DNA of 64,000 nucleotides from Solirubrobacterales bacterium (GTDB lineage Bacteria; Actinomycetota; Thermoleophilia; Solirubrobacterales; 70-9). The notes below the pieces were generated by a model. It was given only the letters and a program-made list of their open reading frames with translations. It did not search any database and was not told the origin of the DNA. Location of the stretch: assembly GCA_009691195.1 (NCBI GenBank), contig SHVA01000006.1, positions 1 through 64,000 on the forward strand, given 5' to 3'. How positions within the stretch are numbered: position 1 is the first letter of the stretch; each line of letters opens with the position of its first letter. Below, one piece after another: positions 5,093-17,630 of the stretch. The position numbers and the translations under genes were made by a program.

Positions 5093-6582
5093 ATCGAGGC
5101 TTCCTCTACGTGCTCGTCTTCGTGGTCGGGATGGCGAGCCTCGGGGTCGAGATCGCCGCCGCCCGCCTGATGGCGCCGTTCTTCGGCGCCTCGACCATCG
5201 TCTGGGCGAACACGATCGGCGTCGTCCTGGTTTCGCTCTCGATCGGCTACTGGCTTGGGGGGCGCCTCGGCGACCGCCACCCGAACATGCGCGGACTCTG
5301 CCTGCTGGCCCTGGCGGCGGCGGCGCTGCTGGCGGTCGTCCCGTTCGCCGCCAAGCCCTTCTTCGAGGTCTCGGTGGACGCGCTCGACGAGATCTCCGCC
5401 GGCGCCTTCGTCGGCTCGCTGGGCGGGGTGCTGGTACTGATCTCGGTCCCGGTGGTCCTGCTCGGCGCCTGCTCGCCGTGGGCGATCCGGCTCGCCGTGG
5501 ACGACGTCGAGCACGCCGGCACCGTCGCCGGGCGCCTCTACGCGATCTCGACCGCCGGGTCGCTGCTGGGGACGATGGCCTCGGCCCTGGTCCTGATCCC
5601 GTTCATCGGCACCCAGCGAACGTTCCTCTGCTTCGCCCTGCTGCTTGCGCTCACGGCCACCGCCGGCCTGGGTTGGCGCTATCTGGCGGTGCCCGTGGTG
5701 TTGGCGGGCGTGATCGCGATCCCGATCGGCACCGTCAAGGCCACCGATGCGGGGGACAGCGTCCTCTGGGAGGAGGAGACGGAGGTCCAGTACGCCCGGG
5801 TGGTCGAGGAAGCCGACGGGGACCGGCGCCTGGAGTTGAACGAGGGCGTCGTGGAGCACTCCCACTACCGTCCCGGAAGCTTCCTCACGGGCAACTATTG
5901 GGATGGGCTCCTGGTGCTGCCGCTGGCCGCGCTGGAGAGGCCTCCGCGGCGGATCGCGATCCTCGGCAACGCGGCGGGGACCGCGGAGCGGGGCTATGGC
6001 CACTTCTACCCCGGGGCTGAGGTTGATGGAGTCGAGATTGACGGGCAGCTGACGGACGTCGGGGAGCGCTACTTCGGACTCGAGCTGAATGACCGGCTCC
6101 GGGCCCACACCGAGGACGCCCGCCCCTGGCTGCAGCGCTCCAGTGGCGACTTCGACCTGATCGTCGTGGACGCCTACCGCCAGCCCTACATCCCCTTCTA
6201 TCTGACGACCAGGGAGTTCTTCGAGCTGGCGCGCGAGCGGCTGGCCCCGGGCGGCGTGGTGGTGGTCAACGTCGGCCACCCCGAGGACAACGACGATCTC
6301 GAGAAGGTCGTGGGCGCGACAATGGCCGAGGTCTTCGAGACCGTGGTCAGGGACCCGGTCAAGGACGAGAACTCCCTGCTGCTCGGGGCCGAGGGCGAGG
6401 CCTCGAGCAAGCGGCTGCTGGCCAACCGGCGGCTGCTGCCGCCCGAGCTGCACAACCAGGCTGCGATAGAGGCGGCGAGGCTGGAGCCGAGGCTTGCCGG
6501 CGGCGAGGTCTACAGCGACGATCGCGCGCCGGTCGAGTGGCTGATCGACCGCTCGATTCTCGGCTACGCTTCCGGCGACTGA
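5089..6582 (+). CDS. fused membrane domain + spermidine/spermine-synthase-like protein
   Basis: A 497-residue protein in two parts. Residues 1 to about 220 are hydrophobic, with about seven membrane segments (start RGFLYVLVFVVGMASLGVEI). The C-terminal part has the class I methyltransferase-type fold of polyamine synthases: ILGNAAGT, an acidic strand end (VDGVEID), then DLIVVDAYRQPYIPFYL in the position of the aminopropyl-transfer loop. Such fusions are annotated as fused MFS/spermidine synthases; whether they make polyamines is often unproven. Its GTG start overlaps the ctaG-like stop. It may transfer an aminopropyl or methyl group to a membrane substrate. Confidence 0.78.
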   Translation: MNRGFLYVLVFVVGMASLGVEIAAARLMAPFFGASTIVWANTIGVVLVSLSIGYWLGGRLGDRHPNMRGLCLLALAAAALLAVVPFAAKPFFEVSVDALDEISAGAFVGSLGGVLVLISVPVVLLGACSPWAIRLAVDDVEHAGTVAGRLYAISTAGSLLGTMASALVLIPFIGTQRTFLCFALLLALTATAGLGWRYLAVPVVLAGVIAIPIGTVKATDAGDSVLWEEETEVQYARVVEEADGDRRLELNEGVVEHSHYRPGSFLTGNYWDGLLVLPLAALERPPRRIAILGNAAGTAERGYGHFYPGAEVDGVEIDGQLTDVGERYFGLELNDRLRAHTEDARPWLQRSSGDFDLIVVDAYRQPYIPFYLTTREFFELARERLAPGGVVVVNVGHPEDNDDLEKVVGATMAEVFETVVRDPVKDENSLLLGAEGEASSKRLLANRRLLPPELHNQAAIEAARLEPRLAGGEVYSDDRAPVEWLIDRSILGYASGD

Positions 6583-6762
6583 GGTTTCCGGCCTGTCAGC
6601 CGGGAGCGCAGGCGCCGCGTCCCGTAGGCGACCAACCCGGCCCCCAGCGCGCAGAGGTCGATCGCGAACGACCAGGCGCGCCCGGGAGGGCCGGTCAGAG
6701 CCCATGCGCCCAGCCGCCGGGAGCGCGAGTCGCGAAGGCGCTGCTCTAAGGTCTCGGCCTCG

Positions 6763-8163
6763 ATGAAGACGACGGTAAACGAGCTTCCCGACTCCCGCAT
6801 CCGCGTCGAGGCCGAGGTCGAGGCCCCCGATGTGGAGGTCCGCATGCGCCAGACCGCCGAGGCGCTCAGCAAGGAGATGAAGATCCCGGGCTTCCGCCAG
6901 GGCAAGGTGCCGCCGGAGATGGTGATCCAGAGGCTCGGCCGCGAGTCTGTGCTGAAGCAGACGCTCGAGTCATCCCTGGCCGACTGGTACGAGGGGGCGC
7001 TGCTCGACGCCGCGGTAGAGCCTGTCGGGAGCCCCGAGCTGAACGTCGCGGACTTTCCCGACGAGGGCGGACCGCTGCGCTTCACGATCGAGGTGGGGGT
7101 CCGGCCCAAGGCCGAACTCGGCGAGTACCGGGGCCTCGACGTCGGTCGCGAGAGCACCGAGGTCCCCGCCGACGCCGTGGACGCGGAGCTCGAGCGGCTG
7201 CGGGAGGGCTTCGCGAGCCTCAATACGGTCGAGCGGGCGGCGAGCGAGGGCGACGTGGTCCTGATCGACTATCGCGGCGAGGTGGACGGCGAGCCGTTCG
7301 AGGGTGGCGAAGCGCGGGACTACCTGCTGGAGCTGGGCGCCGGGCGGGTGCTCGAGGACTTCGAGAAGGCGCTCGAGGGCGCCTCCGCAGGGGACGAGCG
7401 CAAGGCGAGCGTGACCTTCCCCGACGACTACCAGGCCGAGGAGATGGCCGGCAAGACGGCCGAGTTCACGATCAGCGCCAAGGAGGTCCGCGAGAAGGAG
7501 TTGCCCGAGCTCGACGACGACTTCGCCTCCGAGGCCTCCGAGTTCGACACCCTCGAGGAGCTTCGGGGCCAGATCGAGTCGCAGCTGGCCGAGGTCCTCG
7601 ACCGCCAGGCGGTCGAGCGCTTCCGCGAGGCAGCGCTAGACGCCGCCGCCGACAACTCCACGGTCGAGCTGCCCGAGCCGATCGTCGCCGCCCGCGCCGA
7701 GGAGGGCTGGGAGCGGCTCGAGCGTCAGATCCGAGAGCAGGGCATGGAGCCCGAGGCCTATCTCCAGATGCAGGGCAAGACGCGGGAGGAGGCGATCGCC
7801 GAGGCCAAGCCGGGCGCCGAGAAGGCGCTCCGCCGCGAGGCGACCCTCGCCGCCGTGGCCGAGGCCGAGGAGATCGAGGTGACCGAGGACGAGATGCTCG
7901 AGGCGCTCCAGATCCCGCCGGGGCACGAGGACCACGGACACCCCGAGCCCGCGGACGCGCTCGCCGAGTTGCGCCGCAGCGGGCGCGAGGGGCTGCTCCA
8001 GCAGGACCTGAGGATGCGCCGCGCGATGGAGCTGATCGCCGAGGAGGCGAACCCGATCCCGCTCAAGCAGGCCGAGGCTCGCGAGAAGATCTGGACCCCT
8101 GAGAAGGAGAAGGAGCGCGAAGCAGAGGAGTCCGCCGGTCTCTGGACGCCGGGCAGCGACTAG
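6763..8163 (+). CDS. tig: trigger factor, ribosome-associated chaperone/prolyl isomerase
   Basis: A 466-residue protein. The N-terminal ribosome-binding domain carries the signature GFRQGKVP near residues 45-52. An FKBP-like PPIase domain follows (about 155-240, with VVLIDYRGEVDGEPFEGG), then a long helical C-terminal chaperone domain. The end is an acidic/basic tail somewhat longer than usual. Trigger factor binds L23 at the exit tunnel and folds nascent chains. In many bacteria tig sits just before clpP-clpX; here the accessory ligase cluster is inserted between them. The stop TAG (8161-8163) directly borders the next ORF, which has no normal start. Confidence 0.95.
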   Translation: MKTTVNELPDSRIRVEAEVEAPDVEVRMRQTAEALSKEMKIPGFRQGKVPPEMVIQRLGRESVLKQTLESSLADWYEGALLDAAVEPVGSPELNVADFPDEGGPLRFTIEVGVRPKAELGEYRGLDVGRESTEVPADAVDAELERLREGFASLNTVERAASEGDVVLIDYRGEVDGEPFEGGEARDYLLELGAGRVLEDFEKALEGASAGDERKASVTFPDDYQAEEMAGKTAEFTISAKEVREKELPELDDDFASEASEFDTLEELRGQIESQLAEVLDRQAVERFREAALDAAADNSTVELPEPIVAARAEEGWERLERQIREQGMEPEAYLQMQGKTREEAIAEAKPGAEKALRREATLAAVAEAEEIEVTEDEMLEALQIPPGHEDHGHPEPADALAELRRSGREGLLQQDLRMRRAMELIAEEANPIPLKQAEAREKIWTPEKEKEREAEESAGLWTPGSD

Positions 8164-8809
8164 CTGTCTCCGCGAGGTACTCCGCACCGAGGGCGCGGGC
8201 GGCGTCTGGCGGCGTGGGCTGGGCGTCACCGTCTACCGGCGGCTGCTGTTCGTCGCCCGCGAGATCGACGCCTCGCCGCCGGTTGAGGAGGATGAAGCGC
8301 CGGGGCTGTCCCTGGAGCAGCTGACGCCCGAGCTGCTCGGCGAGTACGCGCGGCTGCGGCCAGAGGTTTCGGCCGAGGAGACGCGGGGTCGTCTGGAGCG
8401 CGGCCAGAGCTGCCTGCTCACGCGCCAGGGGGACGAGATCATCTCGGCCCGCTGGTACTCGAGCGGGCGCGCCGAGATTCCGTACTTCGGGCTCTCGTTC
8501 GAGCTCGGCGAGGGCGTCGCCTACGTCTATGACGTCTACACGGCCCCGGCGGCGCGCGGACAGAGCATCAGCGGGACCACGCGGCTTCGCTACGAGGCCC
8601 TGCTGCGCGAGCGGGGAGCGCGTTCCCTGCTCGGGACCGTGATGCCGGGCAACGCAGCCGGGCTCGGCCTGGTCCGGGGCGCGGGCTACCGGCCGGTCGG
8701 CACCGTCGGTTGCCTGCGGCTCGGCTCCGCCCGGCTGCCGGTTCGCCGCCGGCTGCCGAGTGCCTACCTCGGCTCAGCGACCCGGTTGCACGTCACCGAG
8801 ACCTTCTAG
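8162..8809 (+). CDS. GNAT-like N-acetyltransferase ORF without a canonical start codon
   Basis: The frame opens at 8036 and runs to TAG at 8807-8809, with coding-like composition from the tig stop onward (about 215 residues). The C-terminal half looks like a GNAT fold: YVYDVYTAPAARGQSI in the acetyl-CoA-binding position, then a strand/helix pair ending LGLVRGAGYRPVGT. There is no in-frame ATG, GTG or TTG before the last quarter of the ORF. Only CTG at 8099 and 8219 could be near-cognate starts. It overlaps the convergent asnB by 4 nt. It may use a rare start, contain a sequence error, or be decayed at the 5' end; the coordinate given is where coding-like sequence begins. Confidence 0.55.
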   Translation, partial: SCLREVLRTEGAGGVWRRGLGVTVYRRLLFVAREIDASPPVEEDEAPGLSLEQLTPELLGEYARLRPEVSAEETRGRLERGQSCLLTRQGDEIISARWYSSGRAEIPYFGLSFELGEGVAYVYDVYTAPAARGQSISGTTRLRYEALLRERGARSLLGTVMPGNAAGLGLVRGAGYRPVGTVGCLRLGSARLPVRRRLPSAYLGSATRLHVTETF

Positions 8810-10669
8810 AGCCAGAGCTCGCGCTCGACGGCCTCGACGCTCTCACCCTCGAGGAAGAGGCGCGCCCAGATCTCCGCCGTCCAGAACCTGATGGCGGTGG
8901 CGAAGGGGCTGCGCGCGAGGAGATCGTCCCACTCGGCCTCGCTCGCCCCGAGCAACTCGCGCAGCAGCCCGCTCCGGACGAACCCTGGGTCGGCCGCCTG
9001 CTCGATCAGCCGGGTCCAGTTGAACATCATCCCGGGGTACTTCGGCCGCTCGACGATCGCCCGGGGAAGGTGCCGCGCGCCGAGCTCGCCGAGGATCCCC
9101 TTGAGCCGCGGCCCGGTGCGGGCCTCGAGAGGCAGGTTCAGGGCCAAGCTGACGACGTCAGGGTCCAGGAATGGGACCCTCGTCTCGACGGAGCGCGACA
9201 TCGCGTCCTTGTCCATGCGGTTGAGCAGGTAGCCGAAGCTCGAGCAGCTGATGTCGGTCACCAGCGCGACCTCCCAATCGAGCCGGGGGCCACTGTGGTG
9301 GGAGTACGCACGGCGCGCGCGTTCCAGCGCCTCCTCCAGGGCGCGCGCCGACTCCGGCGCTCGATCCGGCACGGGCTCAAGCCTTCTCAGGTGCAGGCGC
9401 TGGAGAGCGCGCTTCCAGGGGAACCTGCGCCGGGCGATCCTGCTGAGGTAGTCCTTGATCATGCGGCGCCGCGGCAGGAAGGCCCTCTCCTCGTGGGGGT
9501 GGAAGTAGGGGTAGCCGGCGAAGAGCTCGTCAGCGCCCTCCCCGGTCAGCAGCACCTTGATGCCGCGATTGCGCGCGGCGGCGGCCATCGAGGCGATCGG
9601 CACCGAGCCGGCGCTCGCGAGCGGGTACTCGTGTGAGTGAACGGCCCCGACGAGGTTGGAGCGCCATGCCGCCGAGTCGATGCTCACCGTCTCCAGCTCG
9701 ATCCCGAGAGACCCCGCCACGAGCTGGGCCCAGTGCCCCTCGTCGGCTCGGGGCTCATCGGGCAGCGAGCAGTTGACGGCGGCGACCGGCCCACCGGCCT
9801 CCCGCGCCAGGGCCACCGGCCTCCCGCGCCAGGGCTGTGATCAGCGACGAGTCGAGCCCGCCTGAGCACATCGTCCCCAGCGGCACGTCGGACATCAAGC
9901 GGCGGGTGACCGACTCCCGCAGCACCGACTCGAGGCGGTTGACGAGCTGGGTCCGGGTCATCAACTCGAGTTCACGCGCGAGCTCGGCGTCGACCGAGGC
10001 GGTCGGGTCGTACCACTGGCGCTCGGAAGCCTCGAGTGTGCGGATGTCCACCTCCGCGATGGTGCCTGGGGGCAACCGCTCGATTCCCTCCAGCGGCGTC
10101 AGGCGCCCGTATGTCCAGCCCCGGAACGCTGCGTGTCGCAGCGCGTCGGGTTGTGGCCGACGGGGGATCCCCGCCGCGAGCAGCGACTTGAACTCGCTCG
10201 CGAACCACAGCCAACCCTCGTGGCGGGTGATGTAGAGGGGCTTCTTGCCGAATCGGTCCCGCGCGAGGATCAGCCGGCCGCGCTCGCGGTCCACTGCCGC
10301 CAGGGCAAGCGGCCCGTTGCAGCGCTCGACCGCCTCCGGGCCCCAGGCTGCGAGCGCCTCGACCAACGTCTCGGTATCGCTGTGCCCGCGCCAGCTCCGG
10401 CCCGGGAGCTGACGGCGAAGCTCCATGTGGTTGTAGGCCTCCCCGTTGTAGGCCAGCAGCCAGCGTTCTCCCGCATCGGCCATCGGCTGGCGGCCGGTTG
10501 GCCCCGGGTCCACGATCGAGAGCCGCCGGACGGCGAGCCCGACGTTGCCCTCAACCGCGATTCCGCCGTCGTCGGGGCCACGTGGGCGCAGCGCCTCGGC
10601 CATCGCTTCGAGCACGACCCTGTCCGGGGTCTCCCCGGGGGGCGCCACGCAGCCCGCGATCCCGCACAT
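8806..10669 (-). pseudogene. asnB: asparagine synthase (glutamine-hydrolysing), frameshifted by a 22-bp tandem duplication
   Basis: Two overlapping frames together give one AsnB. The 5' part (10669 down to about 9800) starts MCGIAG, with the Cys2 glutaminase nucleophile, and includes RPRGPDD, YNGEAYNH and the synthetase P-loop CSGGLDSS. The 3' part (about 9816-8806) continues with the synthetase domain, including LTGEGADELFAGYPYFHPHEE. Both frames encode ALAREAGGP at the junction because a 22-bp unit occurs twice (9791-9834). Removing one copy restores a 613-residue protein of normal length. It converts aspartate (or a related carboxylate) to an amide using Gln and ATP. It begins 2 nt after the upstream ligase-GNAT stop. 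As given it would make a truncated product. Confidence 0.85.
9791..9834. repeat. perfect 22-bp tandem direct duplication inside asnB
   Basis: The units 9791-9812 and 9813-9834 are identical, each starting CCACCGGCCT and ending GCGCCAGGG. A 22-bp gain shifts the frame by one and explains why the AsnB N- and C-terminal halves lie in different frames that share nine residues. This may be a slipped-strand duplication in the cell or an assembly artefact. Confidence 0.95.
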
Positions 10670-10671
10670 GT

Positions 10672-12522
10672 CTAGGCCCGGTCTCGATCGCGCATGTAGG
10701 CATCCAGGTCGAGCTCAAGCGTCGTCCAGCGCTCGACCTCGGGGTCGCCGAACTCGTGGAGCTTCTCGACTGATCCGACCTCGCGGTATCCGAAGCGGCG
10801 CTTGTACCACTCGATCGTCTCCGGCCGGTCCGCGTTGGTCGTGACGGTGCGAGCCCCGTGTTCGTGCATGGCCTCGAGCCGGCGCTCCTGGAGCTTGGCG
10901 CCTATCCCCAGACCGCCGTGCTCAGGGTGGACGGCGAGCAGCGTCGTCTTCCCGCAGCCTGGCTCTGGGATCGCGTAGCCGGCTGCGCCGACGATCTCCC
11001 CTCCGATCCGGGCGACGACGAAGCGGTCGGGGTCGAGCTCGCCCATCTCCGGCGAGGGGACGTTGTGCATGTTTGCCGTCTCCATCACGGCCAGGATCGC
11101 GCCTCGGTCGCCCTCGCCGGCGGGATGGTAACTGACGTCCGGCCGGCTCGACTTCGGCCCGGATGGACCGGGGCTCATCGGCACGATCGGCTGAGCCTTT
11201 CCGGAGGAGCGGCGCGGGACCGACTCGACGAAGGACGCCTCGACCCGGAGGTCGCCGCCCAGGCGCTCGCGGAAGCGCCGCTGCGCCCACGCCGCGAGCT
11301 CCGTTCGATCGCAGCCGGCGGAGCTGACGACGGCGGCGCGGATCAGGGTCGGGGACTCCTGGACGAGCTGGTAGCCGAGGACGTCTTCGCGCAGCCGCAT
11401 CAGGGCCTTCAGCGCCTGCCCGTGGATCGGCGCCCCGTCGGTGCGAACTATCCACTCGTCGCTGCGGCCCGTCACATAGGAGAGCAGCGGCAGGTTGCGT
11501 CCACAGGAGCAGCCCGAGCCGAGCCGCGCCGCCCGGTCGCCGAGCCGGTAATTGAGCAGCACGCTCCCGCGCGCGAACAGGTGTGAGGTCACGACGTCGC
11601 CCGTTTCACCCTCGGGCAGCTCCTTTCCGCCGGGACCGATGATCCGCAGCGGGCAGAGGTCCACGTTGAGGTGGTAGCCGGGGTGGATCCCGCACTCGAA
11701 GCCGATCTGGGGCGCCTCGACCGCGCGGTAGGCGCTCAGCACGGTGACTCCGAGCTCCTCGGAGATCAGCCTGCGGCCGCCCTCGGAGAGCTCGTCGGAG
11801 CTGAAGGCCGCGACCCTCGGCAGGTGCGGGTCGCCGCCCTGGTCGCGACGCAGCTTGATCTGGCGGAAGAGCTCCTCGAGGTAGGAGCCGAAGGAGACGA
11901 CCGAGTCCGGGGCGTATTGATCGAGCGCCTCGATCTGCTGAGCGGGTGGGTCGAGCATCGACAGCTCCAGCCGCCGGACGCGGAGCGAGGAGGGGATCAG
12001 CGAGCTGCGGTTGAAGTTGGCGCGCGCTCCCTCTCTCACCGGCAGGAAGATCTCCGCCTGCCTCAGCCGTAATCGCCTCCCGGCGGCCCTGATGGCGACC
12101 GATCGCAGCCGCTCGCGCTGGGCCGCGGAGGCGAAGAGGGCGACGGGGTGGCGGTAGACCGTTGCCGGCTCGCCGCTGCTGCCGCCGCTTCGAAACCGCA
12201 GGTAGCGCTCGATCGGGTAGGCCTCCGAGACGAAGTACTCCGGATCGGCCTGGAGCTGTTGGCGCTCGATCAGCGGCAGCTTCGCGAGGTCCTCCGCCGA
12301 GGTGAAGTCGGCGGGCTTCAACCCCAGCCGCTTCCCGGTCTCGCGGTAGTAGGGGACGTGGGCGAAGGCATGGTCCACGGTCTCGCGCAGGCGCCGGCGC
12401 TGGGCGCGCTCGATCGCCTCGGGCGAGCGGAAGGGGAAGCGGGTTTCGAGTGGGCCGCGGACCGCGAGCCGGGCGCTCCAGGCGGCGCGGCGCAGCAGCG
12501 GCTCTCGCGGGGGCCGGCTCAC
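10672..12522 (-). CDS. phenylacetate-CoA-ligase/CapK-like adenylate-forming protein fused to a C-terminal GNAT domain
   Basis: A 616-residue protein. Residues 1 to about 450 match the PaaK/CapK (coenzyme F390 synthetase-like) pattern: a basic N-terminus, HAFAHVPYYRE near residue 52, the phosphate-binding loop SGGSSGEP at 112-119, NYRLGD, CSCGRNLPLL and a C-terminal SSGKAQPIV with the expected catalytic Lys. After a Pro/Ser linker, residues about 457-616 form a GNAT acetyltransferase with the acetyl-CoA loop HPEHGGLGIGAKLQ and EWYKRRFGYREVG. It overlaps the preceding paralogue by 4 nt (ATGA) and ends 2 nt before asnB. The fusion suggests one substrate is both activated and acylated; the substrate is unknown. 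Confidence 0.8.
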   Translation of the reverse strand: MSRPPREPLLRRAAWSARLAVRGPLETRFPFRSPEAIERAQRRRLRETVDHAFAHVPYYRETGKRLGLKPADFTSAEDLAKLPLIERQQLQADPEYFVSEAYPIERYLRFRSGGSSGEPATVYRHPVALFASAAQRERLRSVAIRAAGRRLRLRQAEIFLPVREGARANFNRSSLIPSSLRVRRLELSMLDPPAQQIEALDQYAPDSVVSFGSYLEELFRQIKLRRDQGGDPHLPRVAAFSSDELSEGGRRLISEELGVTVLSAYRAVEAPQIGFECGIHPGYHLNVDLCPLRIIGPGGKELPEGETGDVVTSHLFARGSVLLNYRLGDRAARLGSGCSCGRNLPLLSYVTGRSDEWIVRTDGAPIHGQALKALMRLREDVLGYQLVQESPTLIRAAVVSSAGCDRTELAAWAQRRFRERLGGDLRVEASFVESVPRRSSGKAQPIVPMSPGPSGPKSSRPDVSYHPAGEGDRGAILAVMETANMHNVPSPEMGELDPDRFVVARIGGEIVGAAGYAIPEPGCGKTTLLAVHPEHGGLGIGAKLQERRLEAMHEHGARTVTTNADRPETIEWYKRRFGYREVGSVEKLHEFGDPEVERWTTLELDLDAYMRDRDRA

Positions 12523-13904
12523 CCCCGCTCCCGTTGCAGGCGCTCCCGGGCCTGCAGCGACATCACGGGGCGCACCTTGCCCCGATCGCTCCTCGGCAGC
12601 GTTGGCACCGCCGCGACCTCGACCGAGCCTCCGCCACCGAGCGGCTCGGCCAGCGTCCGGGCCAGTCGGGCGCAGAGAGCCTCGTCATCAGCGCCGCGGT
12701 CGGTGACGACCTCGACCCTGAGAAGTCCCGGTCCCAGCTGCAGGACCTGGTAGCGGAGTACCGCGGGCTCAGAGGTCAGGGGCGCGCGGATCCGCTGTGG
12801 GTGCAGCAACTCGCCCGATGCGGTCTCGATCAGGTCGTCGCTGCGGGCCTCGAGCTGGGAGAGCAGCGGCAGCCTGCGCCCGCATGGACAGCTCCCGGGG
12901 AGGGCCGCCGCGATGTCGCCGAGCCGGTAGTTGAGGAGGATCGTGGCGCGGTTGACGAGGTTGGAGACCACGACCTCTCCACTCTCGCCCGGCGGCAGAG
13001 ACTCACCCCGCTCGGGGTCCACGATTCGCAGCGCGCTGAGGTCGGCGTTGACGTGCAGGCCCGTATGGCGCTCGCACTCGAAGGCGATCTGGAAGGCCTC
13101 GATCGCGCTGTAGACGCTCAGCACCTCGATCCCGAAGTCGTCGCTGATCAGCCGCCGCATCCGCTCGGACAGCGGGTCGGCCCCGTAGGTGACTACGGAG
13201 GGCGCAAGGAAGGGTTGGCCGCTCTCCCGCAGATGAACGAACAGTGCCTCGAGTCCCGAGCCGAAGCATGCGATCACGTCGGGGCGGAACTCGTTCAGCG
13301 CCTCGACGTTGGCGTCCATCGGATCGAGCATCGAGAGCTCGAGCGACGCGTAGCGAAGCGATGCCGGCAGCAGGCTCGATCCCGAGAATGCCCGGCTGGT
13401 CTGGCGCGAGGAGTCGAGGGGCGCGGCGAGCCGCGCCATCCGGGGCCGCAGCCGGCTCGCGGCGAGGCGGGCGGTCAGGGCGCGGAGGCGCTCCCGGTGA
13501 GCGCCGCCGAGGACCAGCGAGCGCCGGTCCCAGTAGACGGTCACGGGCTCGCCGCCGCCGCCCCCGCTCCGAAGCTCGACGTAGCGTTCCAGCGGCTCCG
13601 CCTCCGAGACGAAGTACTCCGGGTCGGCCTGGAGCTGGTCGCGCTCGATCAGCGGCAGCTTCGCCAGGTCCCCGGCGGCCTGGAAGTCGGCGGGCCCCAG
13701 CCCCAGCCGCTTGCCCGCCTCGCGGTAGTAGGGGACGTGGGCGAAGGCGTGGTCGACGCTCTCGCGCAGGCGCCCGCGCTGGGCGCGCTCGATCGCCTCC
13801 GGTGAGCGGAAGGGGAAGCGGGCCTCGAGCGGGCCGCGGATCGCGAGCCGGGCGCTCCAGGCGGCGCGGCGAGCGACCGAGGCGCCGCTGCGTTGAGCGC
13901 TCAT
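12519..13904 (-). CDS. phenylacetate-CoA-ligase/CapK-like protein, middle paralogue
   Basis: A 461-residue paralogue of both neighbours, very similar over the first 110 residues ([28 protein letters not shown]). The phosphate-binding loop reads SGGGGGEP (113-120), so the Ser/Thr residues of the sister proteins are replaced by Gly. NYRLGD, CPCGRRLPLLS and the C-terminal DRGKVRPVM are kept. Reduced adenylation activity or altered ATP handling is possible. The longer ORF to 14249 is shadow of the upstream gene. ATG 13904 overlaps the upstream TGA (ATGA), and its own stop overlaps the next ATG, so the three ligases look translationally coupled. Confidence 0.8.
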   Translation of the reverse strand: MSAQRSGASVARRAAWSARLAIRGPLEARFPFRSPEAIERAQRGRLRESVDHAFAHVPYYREAGKRLGLGPADFQAAGDLAKLPLIERDQLQADPEYFVSEAEPLERYVELRSGGGGGEPVTVYWDRRSLVLGGAHRERLRALTARLAASRLRPRMARLAAPLDSSRQTSRAFSGSSLLPASLRYASLELSMLDPMDANVEALNEFRPDVIACFGSGLEALFVHLRESGQPFLAPSVVTYGADPLSERMRRLISDDFGIEVLSVYSAIEAFQIAFECERHTGLHVNADLSALRIVDPERGESLPPGESGEVVVSNLVNRATILLNYRLGDIAAALPGSCPCGRRLPLLSQLEARSDDLIETASGELLHPQRIRAPLTSEPAVLRYQVLQLGPGLLRVEVVTDRGADDEALCARLARTLAEPLGGGGSVEVAAVPTLPRSDRGKVRPVMSLQARERLQRERG

Positions 13905-15241
13905 TCGCCCGTCTCCGCCCTCAGGATCGTCCTCACCTTGCCGCTTTCGGCCCGCGAGAGCGTTTCTGAGAACTCGACCCGGGCGTCGAGTGGCTCGCCC
14001 AGCTCCCCCGCACGCGCGGCGATCGCTTCGGCCACGGCGGCCCGGTCGGCGCCGGGAGCCGCGACCACCACCACGCGGAGCTTTCCCGGTTGCTCCTGGA
14101 TGAGCTGATAGCGCCGGATCTCGTCGAAGTTCCTCAGGATCGAGCGCATCGTCTGAGGGTGGATCGGCGCCCCGGAGCGCGAGAGCATCCACTCGCTGGT
14201 CCGTCCCTGCGGGTGGGAGAGCAGCGGCAGCGTGCGCCCGCAGGGGCACGGGTCGGGCAGCTTGGTGGCGAGGTCCCCCAGCCCGTAGTTGAGGAGCATG
14301 GTGGCGCGGTTGACGAGGTTGGAGACCACCACCCGTCCGCTCTCGCCGCCGGGCAGCTCGCTGCCGTCGTCGTCAACGATCCTGACCGGGCAGACGTCGA
14401 GGTTGTGGTGAAGCCCGCTGTGGCGGTCGCATTCCCAGGCGATCGTCGGGGTCTCCACGGCCTGGTAGACGCTCAGGACCTCGATCCCCAGACCGGTCAG
14501 CAACCGCCGGACCTGGTCGGAGAGCGAGTCTGCCGCGTAGACGGCGACGCTCGGGCGGTGGAACTCGCGGTCCGAGGTTGCGAGATCGTTGTAGATGGCC
14601 TCGATCGCCGAGCCATAGCCGGAGACCACGTCGGGGCGGAAGGCGTCGATCTGCGCCTCGATCTCGGGCAGCGGATCAAACAGCGGGATCGTGATCACCA
14701 CCGTCCTCACGCCCTTCCAGAACCGCTGGCGGCCCACCTTTCTGTTGAGGTCGGTGGTCGAGCTGCTGGCCGGGGCGATCATTGCGATCCTCCGCCTCCA
14801 TCGCCTCCCGGTCAGCTTTGCGTTCACCGGCTCGCTCCGCTGGAAGGTGAGCATCCGTTCGTAGAGGCTCGAGCGGTGCCGGAAGAAGGTGATCGGCTCG
14901 CCGGTGCTTCCTCCTGTCTGGAGCTCGAGGTGGTTGTCCAGTGGCTCCGCCTCCGAGACGAAGTACTGGGGGTCGGCCTGGAGGCGGTCCCGCTCGATCA
15001 ACGGCAGCTTCCCCAGGTCGCCGGCGGCCTGGAAGTCGCCGGGCCCCAACCCCAGCCTCTTGCCGGTTTCGCGGTAGTAGGGAACGTGGACGAAGGCGTG
15101 GTCAACGCTCTCGCGCAGCCGCCGGCGCTGCGCGCGCTCGATCGCCTCGGTTGAGCGGAAGGGGAAGCGCTCCTCGAACGGGGCAGCGACGGTCAGCCTG
15201 GCCGTCCAGACGAGTCGCCGCGCGCGCGACCGTTGCTTCAT
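13901..15241 (-). CDS. phenylacetate-CoA-ligase/CapK-like protein, first paralogue of the array
   Basis: A 446-residue adenylate-forming-family protein and first gene of the minus-strand operon. It shows [11 protein letters not shown], the loop TGGSTGEP (109-116), [22 protein letters not shown] and [11 protein letters not shown], and ends with SGKVRTIL carrying the conserved Lys. PaaK-type enzymes activate aryl or acyl acids to CoA thioesters; CapK relatives occur in capsule and exopolysaccharide clusters. It is divergent from clpP with 70 nt between the start codons, so its promoter must lie there or overlap clpP's. The acid it activates cannot be told from sequence. Confidence 0.82.
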
Positions 15242-15295
15242 CGCTTCTCGCTCACGTCGTCATTCTCTCCTGTCGGGGTCGCCCAGGGCGGTCGC

Positions 15296-15301
15296 TACAC
15301 T
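15296..15301 (+). promoter_or_regulatory. candidate -10 element of clpP
   Basis: TACACT ends 10 nt before the clpP ATG at 15312. No convincing -35 is visible. It lies in the 70-nt divergent spacer with the ligase operon. Confidence 0.4.
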
Positions 15302-15311
15302 CCCCGGCCTC

Positions 15312-15896
<585 letters not shown>

Positions 15897-15987: not shown

Positions 15988-16680
15988 GTGAAGCCCGCCA
16001 AGGCCTTCTTCGGCGCGGCCACGGGTGTGCGGGCCAGCTTCCGCGCCTCCACTGACTCCCCGACCCGGGTCTCGGTTCGCTTCACCCGCGGCGGCAACAG
16101 GCTGCGACACATCGTGGTCGAGGTCAAGCCCGGTTCTCCGGGGGTCGTCGTGCCCTGGAACGGGCGAACCGACGCCGGCAAGGTCGCGCCGGACGGCCGC
16201 TACGGGGTCAGCGTCAAGGCAAAGGGCGCAGGCGCCCGGCGGATCGGCAGGGTGGCGCTGCACGGCTACCGCTTCCCGGTTCGCGGCCCTCACGGCAGCC
16301 GCGGAGCTATCGGCCGCTTCCACGCCCCCCGCTCTGGCGGCAGGACCCACCAGGGCTTCGACGTCGTTGCCGACTGCGGGACGCCACTGGTCGCGGCCCG
16401 TGCGGGGACCGTCGTCCGCCGGGGCTACGACCCGGAGCTCTACGGCAACTACCTGCTGATCAATGGCCGCGCCACGCGGCGAAGCCTCTTCTACGCCCAC
16501 CTGATCGCGCCGGCCGAGGTCAAGCGCGGCGATCGCGTCTTCACCGGCACCCGGCTCGGGCTGGTGGGGAGGACGGGCAACGCCAGGACGACGCCATGCC
16601 ACCTCCACTTCGAGATCCGGGTCCACGGTCGCGCGCTCGACCCGGAGCCCTTCCTGCGCGCCTGGAACCGCCACAGCTAG
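15988..16680 (+). CDS. M23-family peptidase/LytM-like secreted protein (true start probably upstream)
   Basis: From GTG 15988 the ORF gives 230 residues. The C-terminal half is an M23/LytM domain: GRTHQGFDV with the first zinc His-x3-Asp, GTPLVAARAGTVV, and CHLHFEIRV with the HxH zinc motif. An upstream segment of about 130 residues is beta-rich. In frame 5' of GTG 15988 the sequence encodes a typical signal peptide (SARALALAAALLAPAAASA) reaching back into the end of clpP, but with no ATG, GTG or TTG. ATC at 15889 or CTG at 15907 would be near-cognate starts. Family role: cleavage of peptidoglycan cross-bridges outside the cell. The true N-terminus is unresolved. Confidence 0.8.
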   Translation: MKPAKAFFGAATGVRASFRASTDSPTRVSVRFTRGGNRLRHIVVEVKPGSPGVVVPWNGRTDAGKVAPDGRYGVSVKAKGAGARRIGRVALHGYRFPVRGPHGSRGAIGRFHAPRSGGRTHQGFDVVADCGTPLVAARAGTVVRRGYDPELYGNYLLINGRATRRSLFYAHLIAPAEVKRGDRVFTGTRLGLVGRTGNARTTPCHLHFEIRVHGRALDPEPFLRAWNRHS

Positions 16681-16736
16681 TCGGCATTTCGTCCGGCCCC
16701 TGGCCTCGCGTTGAGTCGTTGTGCGATGATTCTTGC

Positions 16737-17630
16737 GTGAGGAGTGAGCCGGGGATACGGGCGCTGATCGCGGTGGCGATCTGTGCCGTGGGTTGCCTTG
16801 GCGTGTTCGCGGCTCCCGCGATCGCCAAGAAGAAGCCCCCGGTGGTGACGGTCCACCCCGGCAAGGCCGACGCGATCCAGAAGGCCGTCGACGCGGCCAG
16901 GGCCGGCACCACGATCAAGCTCACCAAGGGCGTCTATCCCGAGAACGTCGTGATCGCCAAGCGGCTCAACCTCGTCAGCGCGGGCAAGGGGATGCCGATC
17001 ATCGACGGCGGCTGTAGCACCCGCTTCACGGTCTCGGTTCGGCACGCCGGCGTCGTGCTCCGGAACCTCAAGGTGATCGGCGCCGCCGACGATCAGGGCG
17101 GCCCCTATCCGTCCGAGGTCGACTTCACCGACGTTGCCGACGGCACCGCCGAGGGCCTGATCCTCCGCGACAGCTGCGACGCGGAGTACGGGATCAACGT
17201 GCTGCGAAGCGCCGGGATCAGGCTGATCGGCAACGAGGCCCGCGGGGGCTTCAGCGACGCCGGCTTCTACATAGGCTCGATCACCGGCGACTCTCCCGGC
17301 GCTCCCGGGCCGCTGCGGGTCAAGCAGAACCTCAGCTACGGCAACACACGCGGGATCATCATCGAGGAGTCCGTCAACGTCGACATCAGGGTCAGCGGCA
17401 ACATCGTCCACAACAACGACGTCGGGATCTTCAACCACGTCAGCGACGGGATGCTCTTCTACGGCAACCAGATCCACGACAACACCTTCGGCATGTATTT
17501 CATCCCCGACGCCGACGACAACCGCGTCATCAACAACGCCTTCAGCGATAACGGCACCGACTTCCTCGACGATGGATCGGGTAACTGCGGCACAGGCAAC
17601 ACGCCCGGCGGCGTCGCCGCCGCCTGCTGA
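16737..17630 (+). CDS. secreted right-handed parallel beta-helix protein
   Basis: A 297-residue protein from GTG 16737. It has a signal peptide (basic start, then IALIAVAICAVGCLGVFAAPAIA-like hydrophobic stretch, roughly residues 8-29). A pectate-lyase/NosD-like beta-helix follows, with repeated Asn-rich rungs: IQKAVDAARAGTTIKL, NIVHNNDVGIFNH, YGNQIHDNTFGMYF, NRVINNAFSDNGTD. Such proteins bind or cleave polysaccharides at the surface; no catalytic site is identifiable. The ORF stays open upstream to 16596, but that part overlaps the peptidase gene and has no signal peptide. It sits between the M23 peptidase and clpX, suggesting cell-envelope work. Confidence 0.78.
   Translation: MRSEPGIRALIAVAICAVGCLGVFAAPAIAKKKPPVVTVHPGKADAIQKAVDAARAGTTIKLTKGVYPENVVIAKRLNLVSAGKGMPIIDGGCSTRFTVSVRHAGVVLRNLKVIGAADDQGGPYPSEVDFTDVADGTAEGLILRDSCDAEYGINVLRSAGIRLIGNEARGGFSDAGFYIGSITGDSPGAPGPLRVKQNLSYGNTRGIIIEESVNVDIRVSGNIVHNNDVGIFNHVSDGMLFYGNQIHDNTFGMYFIPDADDNRVINNAFSDNGTDFLDDGSGNCGTGNTPGGVAAAC

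Follow-up and report, generated by a model that had tools for sequence, protein, structure and literature searches.

The window, comprising the 64 kb that were analysed out of an 88.9-kb contig, belongs to a genome of 2.3 Mb that is assembled into 60 contigs and 92.65% complete. Here a 7.1-kb insert separates tig (6763-8163, plus strand) from clpP (15312-15896, plus strand), as originally predicted. On the minus strand the insert carries, in order, ligase 1, ligase 2, ligase 3 with a C-terminal GNAT domain, and asnB, and the three consecutive paralogues that had been proposed were all recovered as open reading frames, with the coordinates given for them. The features of the insert are the following.

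15242-15311, no strand: divergent intergenic region of 70 bp between ligase 1 and clpP, taken from the gene coordinates
13901-15241, minus strand: ligase 1, CapK/PaaK-type adenylate-forming, 446 aa; P-loop TGGSTGEP intact, C-terminal SGK
14918-15241, minus strand: matching 5' segment of ligase 1, 68-76% identical in amino acids to the other two
12519-13904, minus strand: ligase 2, CapK/PaaK-type adenylate-forming, 461 aa; P-loop SGGGGGEP degenerate, without the second Ser/Thr; C-terminal RGK retained
13572-13904, minus strand: putatively homogenised 5' segment of ligase 2, 43 of 52 fourfold synonymous sites equal to those of ligase 3
10672-12522, minus strand: ligase 3 fused to GNAT, 616 aa; P-loop SGGSSGEP intact, SGK
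12190-12522, minus strand: putatively homogenised 5' segment of ligase 3
10675-11148, minus strand: C-terminal GNAT domain of ligase 3, 158 aa, 'NMH-VPS-EM' family
9755-10669, minus strand: 5' part of asnB, glutaminase domain (Cys2) followed by the beginning of the synthetase domain (SGGLDSS)
8806-9816, minus strand: 3' part of asnB in a different frame, remainder of the synthetase domain
9791-9835, minus strand: exact tandem duplication of 22 bp, disrupting the asnB frame
8168-8809, plus strand: convergent GNAT-like frame in the tig/asnB interval, without a standard start codon before 8639

The overlap between ligases 1 and 2 reads ATGA, as had been claimed for the array as a whole, whereas that between ligases 2 and 3 reads GTGA, the third gene starting with GTG. 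The distance from ligase 3 to the ATG of asnB is 2 nt, in agreement with the earlier reading. Together, the 4-nt overlaps and the 2-nt gap suggest a single transcript. Beyond the insert, a gene for a NosD-like right-handed beta-helix protein (16596-17630, plus strand) sits between clpP and clpX, and the same interval holds an M23-like peptidase gene (15988-16680) that recurs there in several relatives.

Three divergent ligases with a shared N-terminal segment

Ligases of the PaaK type convert an acid, ATP and CoA to an acyl-CoA, and PaaK-like enzymes may also halt at the acyl-AMP. The three window ligases, 46-56% identical to each other as proteins, match phenylacetate-CoA ligases of the PDB over the catalytic domain (E=2e-27) and the PaaK models of NCBIfam (E down to 1e-33). 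In alignment with phenylacetate-CoA ligase and its kin (PDB 4r1l, 2y27 and 2y4o), the P-loop position, the Tyr/Glu and GD motifs and the C-terminal GK coincide. The window ligases are however only distantly similar to these enzymes, and differ from them in forming a tandem trio, in the apparently homogenised 5' end, and in one member being joined to a GNAT. The phenylacetate-CoA ligase equivalog TIGR02155 yields 77, 115 and 73 bits against a cut-off of 646, and the ligases stay under every NCBIfam equivalog cut-off, the best score being 133.5 of 300 bits. All three genes are open, ligases 1 and 3 show a third-position G+C typical of coding sequence (0.91), and each of the three retains the C-terminal catalytic Lys. 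The P-loop is intact in ligases 1 and 3 and degenerate in ligase 2, the activity of which may be weak or altered.

Divergence is unevenly spread along the proteins. Over residues 1-108 the paralogues share 68-81% identity, compared with 35-49% in the core (109-290) and 33-36% at the end, whereas against the ligases of two genomes from another family of the class, G297 and G333, the N-terminal and core segments are about equal (0.31-0.35 and 0.30-0.37, respectively). The striking likeness of the N-terminal coding segments noted in the original prediction holds, at 82-89% nucleotide identity over alignment columns 31-120 for the pairs ligase 2/ligase 3 and ligase 1/ligase 2. Between ligases 2 and 3, 43 of 52 fourfold sites agree in the first segment and 53 of 101 beyond it (Fisher p=2e-4; expected identity at saturation 0.43), a synonymous contrast that is significant in this pair alone and not in those with ligase 1. 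The simplest reading of the mosaic, as the pattern suggests, is gene conversion of the 5' end together with divergence of the pocket region, the alternative being a strong constraint on the N-terminus within the clade. Gene conversion is not proven to account for this similarity by itself, the ligase 1 contrasts lacking significance. The three ligases would offer a small natural example of substrate pockets that diversify while the 5' segment ahead of them stays conserved.

Origin and distribution of the cassette

A tree of 29 ligases places those of the window in one clade (support 0.999), the sister group of which is composed of the two single ligases of G297 and G333, each located beside unrelated genes. 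The three arose by local duplication, a single ligase having been copied twice on the spot between tig and clpP. Searching related genomes for the array between tig and clpP, as had been advised, returned it from none of the 49 other genomes of the family (no match at 1e-40). A first scan of genome contigs with the three ligases gave no match, and tblastn against plasmids recovered only generic ligases of about 27% identity. Normally tig and clpP are adjacent: of 29 relatives, 26 have clpP no more than 1.5 kb from tig. In G008, however, which by its tig is among the two nearest relatives, 2.3 kb of unrelated genes occupy this position. By eye these are SRPBCC-, ArsR- and DUF488-like (L062, 5085-7356), hinting at an insertion-prone spot in the subclade. 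The array and the window hardly differ in G+C (0.71 and 0.70). The lone clade, the absence from the family, the genes in the G008 gap and the ordinary base composition therefore mark the array as a local expansion at a variable spot rather than a conserved system. Since no other family member carries the cassette, its function gains no support from conservation.

The fused GNAT domain and its family

The predicted GNAT fusion in the third ligase was substantiated by Pfam (PF00583, 3e-11) and by an AlphaFold2 model of the domain (pLDDT 88), for which Foldseek returned the GNAT fold; the PDB matches are generic GNATs alone and indicate no function. A model of the entire fusion, from a 4-row alignment, was poor (pLDDT 50) and was set aside. 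By sequence the domain belongs to what we term the 'NMH-VPS-EM' family, with 50-60% identity to 21 homologues. This family is rare: of 299 genomes in the class only G121 also carries it, no genome besides that of the window has it in a 397-genome sample of the phylum, and searches of viral contigs and, by tblastn, of plasmids yielded none. A scan of 84,980 genomes uncovered 23 loci, spread over Thermoleophilaceae, Gemmatimonadales, Chlorobiaceae, proteobacteria and others.

At these loci the GNAT is fused to a BKACE in 14 of 23 cases and adjacent to one in four more (18/23 total). L138 (LNEQ01000275.1), from another actinobacterial family, encodes two consecutive ATPgrasp_ST proteins, a BKACE-GNAT fusion and asnB, the start of asnB touching the GNAT stop, and its gene content matches that of L116, the locus of G121. 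The asnB of L116 and L138 changes frame in the assembly, as does that of the window. In the deltaproteobacterial L121 (CP070770.1), a decarboxylase, a CapK ligase and a GNAT-BKACE fusion follow in order; the consecutive genes of 5892-11329 are amine oxidase-like, Orn/DAP-type decarboxylase, CapK ligase and the fusion. Elsewhere the GNAT is followed by two ATP-grasp genes, BKACE being absent (L132, Gemmatimonadales, 8287-11160), lies amid apparent NRPS genes (L134) or stands alone (L117). Neither the asnB of L116/L138 nor the CapK of L121 is the nearest relative of its window counterpart, and hence the couplings of the GNAT to asnB and to CapK look independently assembled.

Compared to GNAT-BKACE fusions such as those of L121, L124 and L138, the window protein shares a GNAT domain of 50-60% identity, but the partner is a CapK ligase instead of a BKACE. 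BKACE enzymes of the Kce type release a new acyl-CoA from a beta-keto acid and acetyl-CoA. Because one GNAT family is thus fused to both BKACE and PaaK-type proteins, both makers of acyl-CoA, the GNAT would use the acyl-CoA made by its partner. Within the literature that was searched, neither a CapK-GNAT nor a GNAT-BKACE fusion is described. Should the shared-donor reading be true, the rule is that the fusion partner makes acyl-CoA, and the GNAT family marks N-acylation pathways that are missed by current annotation. The transferable point is the repeated coupling of this family to acyl-CoA-forming and amide-forming enzymes.

AMP-forming acyl-CoA synthetases are known to be under Pat-type regulation, and the fused GNAT could analogously be a lysine acetyltransferase that inactivates the ligases through acetylation of their C-terminal catalytic Lys. 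That this residue is present in all three ligases fits such a role. The usual partner of the GNAT family, whether fused or adjacent, is however BKACE, an enzyme that is no AMP-forming ligase and lacks such a Lys switch; the family occurs also beside NRPS and ATP-grasp genes. A Pat-like function is highly improbable.

A frameshifted amidotransferase gene downstream of the ligases

The gene downstream of the array is an AsnB homologue, as foreseen, but not one gene as assembled: it is composed of two open reading frames in different frames, 9755-10669 and 8806-9816, split by the 22-bp duplication (9791-9835), the top-scoring tandem repeat of the whole window. The Cys nucleophile (MCGIAG) and the PP-loop SGGLDSS are both found in the 5' half. 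Aligned to an intact homologue of 622 aa in G049, the halves cover residues 1-283 (62% identity) and 278-621 (45%), with no further break. The lesion is thus single, and either recent or an artefact of assembly or strain mixture. The G049 gene, the closest asnB (62%, N-terminal half), is an orphan with no ligase near.

This frameshift bears on whether the pathway is alive. A cassette that was assembled in a variable spot and is now decaying, with the ligases perhaps still made and the pathway defunct, would account for the asnB lesion, for the adjacent GNAT-like frame (8168-8809) without a start codon, for the degenerate P-loop of ligase 2, for the absence from 49 family relatives, and for the other, unrelated genes in the tig-clpP gap of G008. 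Against decay, the three ligases remain open, with high third-position G+C in two and the C-terminal Lys in all, the asnB halves are jointly full length, the duplication could have arisen from metagenome assembly or strain mixture, and the G+C of the array is near that of the window. On balance we regard decay as rather unlikely.

Alternatively, asnB may be an unrelated amidotransferase that stands behind the ligases by chance and either makes asparagine or, like LtsA, amidates cell-wall mDAP, a reaction carried out by AsnB-type enzymes in Gram-positives (PMC8554201). Congruent with this, it is the sole asnB of the genome, its nearest relative is the G049 orphan, and the halves score 226 and 121 bits with TIGR01536. 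Yet the gene begins only 2 nt from ligase 3, and L116/L138 again pair the GNAT with asnB, although that asnB is of different affinity; chance adjacency there is roughly estimated at about 0.1% (about 1.1 asnB per genome and some 2,400 genes). Moreover, GatB is present in the genome, and asparagine can therefore probably be made on tRNA. We consider a chance association unlikely.

Comparison with known systems and proposed pathway

A functional parallel is the synthesis of the osmolyte N-acetylglutaminylglutamine amide (NAGGN; Ngg GNAT/ligase and AsnO), the mechanism of which has been described (PMC8070244). In both systems a single operon combines a GNAT with an ATP-dependent ligase and an amidotransferase of the AsnB type, but the window ligase is of the CapK type. 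Membership in the NAGGN system was not borne out: the asnB halves reach 214 and 64 bits with the AsnO model TIGR03104, even combined far under the cut-off of 570, and the GNAT of Ngg is joined to its own, non-CapK peptide ligase, in contrast to the CapK-type partner in the window. Similarly, the XrtA/PEP-CTERM model TIGR03108 gives 197 and 53 bits against a cut-off of 817, and neither an exosortase nor the glycosyltransferases of that system were recognised in the window.

The exopolysaccharide setting that was first suggested gained no local support. CapK and AsnB enzyme types do occur together in polysaccharide clusters, such as Rubrivivax psc1 (PMC3684757), and the sugar-transfer-associated ATPgrasp_ST lies beside the GNAT in L116; the cassette could accordingly decorate an exopolysaccharide or capsule. 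Different from psc1, however, the window is without glycosyltransferase or export genes. As already observed in the original prediction, no glycosyltransferase or carrier was recognised in it by eye, nor was a flippase, and the surrounding genes are housekeeping ones (tig, clpP, clpX, valS, mreCD, obg). The ligase relatives in G297 and G333 likewise lie outside polysaccharide clusters. We therefore deem this role quite improbable.

Our preferred reading, put forward tentatively, is of a lineage-specific, probably co-transcribed cassette that modifies a small molecule or polymer through acid activation, N-acylation and amidation. Each ligase would activate a different carboxylic acid, via acyl-AMP to acyl-CoA. 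The GNAT of ligase 3 would then take up acyl-CoA formed on the same polypeptide and transfer the acyl group to an amine, and finally the AsnB-type amidotransferase, frameshifted in the assembly, would turn the free carboxyl of the product into an amide. The order of steps would resemble NAGGN synthesis, where GNAT, ATP-dependent ligase and AsnO act, with CapK ligases replacing the ATP-grasp enzyme; we infer every one of these biochemical steps. The earlier notion of such a module gains from the GNAT located ahead of asnB in L116/L138 and beside CapK in L121, and loses from the absence of the array in all 49 relatives and the asnB frameshift. That asnB is broken in the only genome carrying the cassette counts against the pathway, and the paralogues themselves are in part affected, ligase 2 lacking the P-loop Ser/Thr. 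The orphan state of the nearest asnB, the solitary GNAT of L117 and the ability of PaaK-like enzymes to halt at acyl-AMP weigh on the same side. More ambitiously, though doubtfully, the locus could belong to an undescribed acyl-amide pathway in which interchangeable acyl-CoA makers (BKACE or CapK) are fused to one GNAT family and work together with an AsnB amidotransferase, with tandem ligases diversifying their acid pockets and the 5' segment kept uniform by gene conversion.

The convergent GNAT-like frame

The frame at 8168-8809 is not in the earlier reading of the window. It overlaps the end of asnB by 4 bp, has no ATG, GTG or TTG before 8639, and has a 34%-identical paralogue at G000:C25:69224-69775. 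A related GNAT is apparently fused to a methyltransferase in G178 (L108, 8179-9651), and a similar methyltransferase comes after the G297 ligase (L091, 8524-9252).
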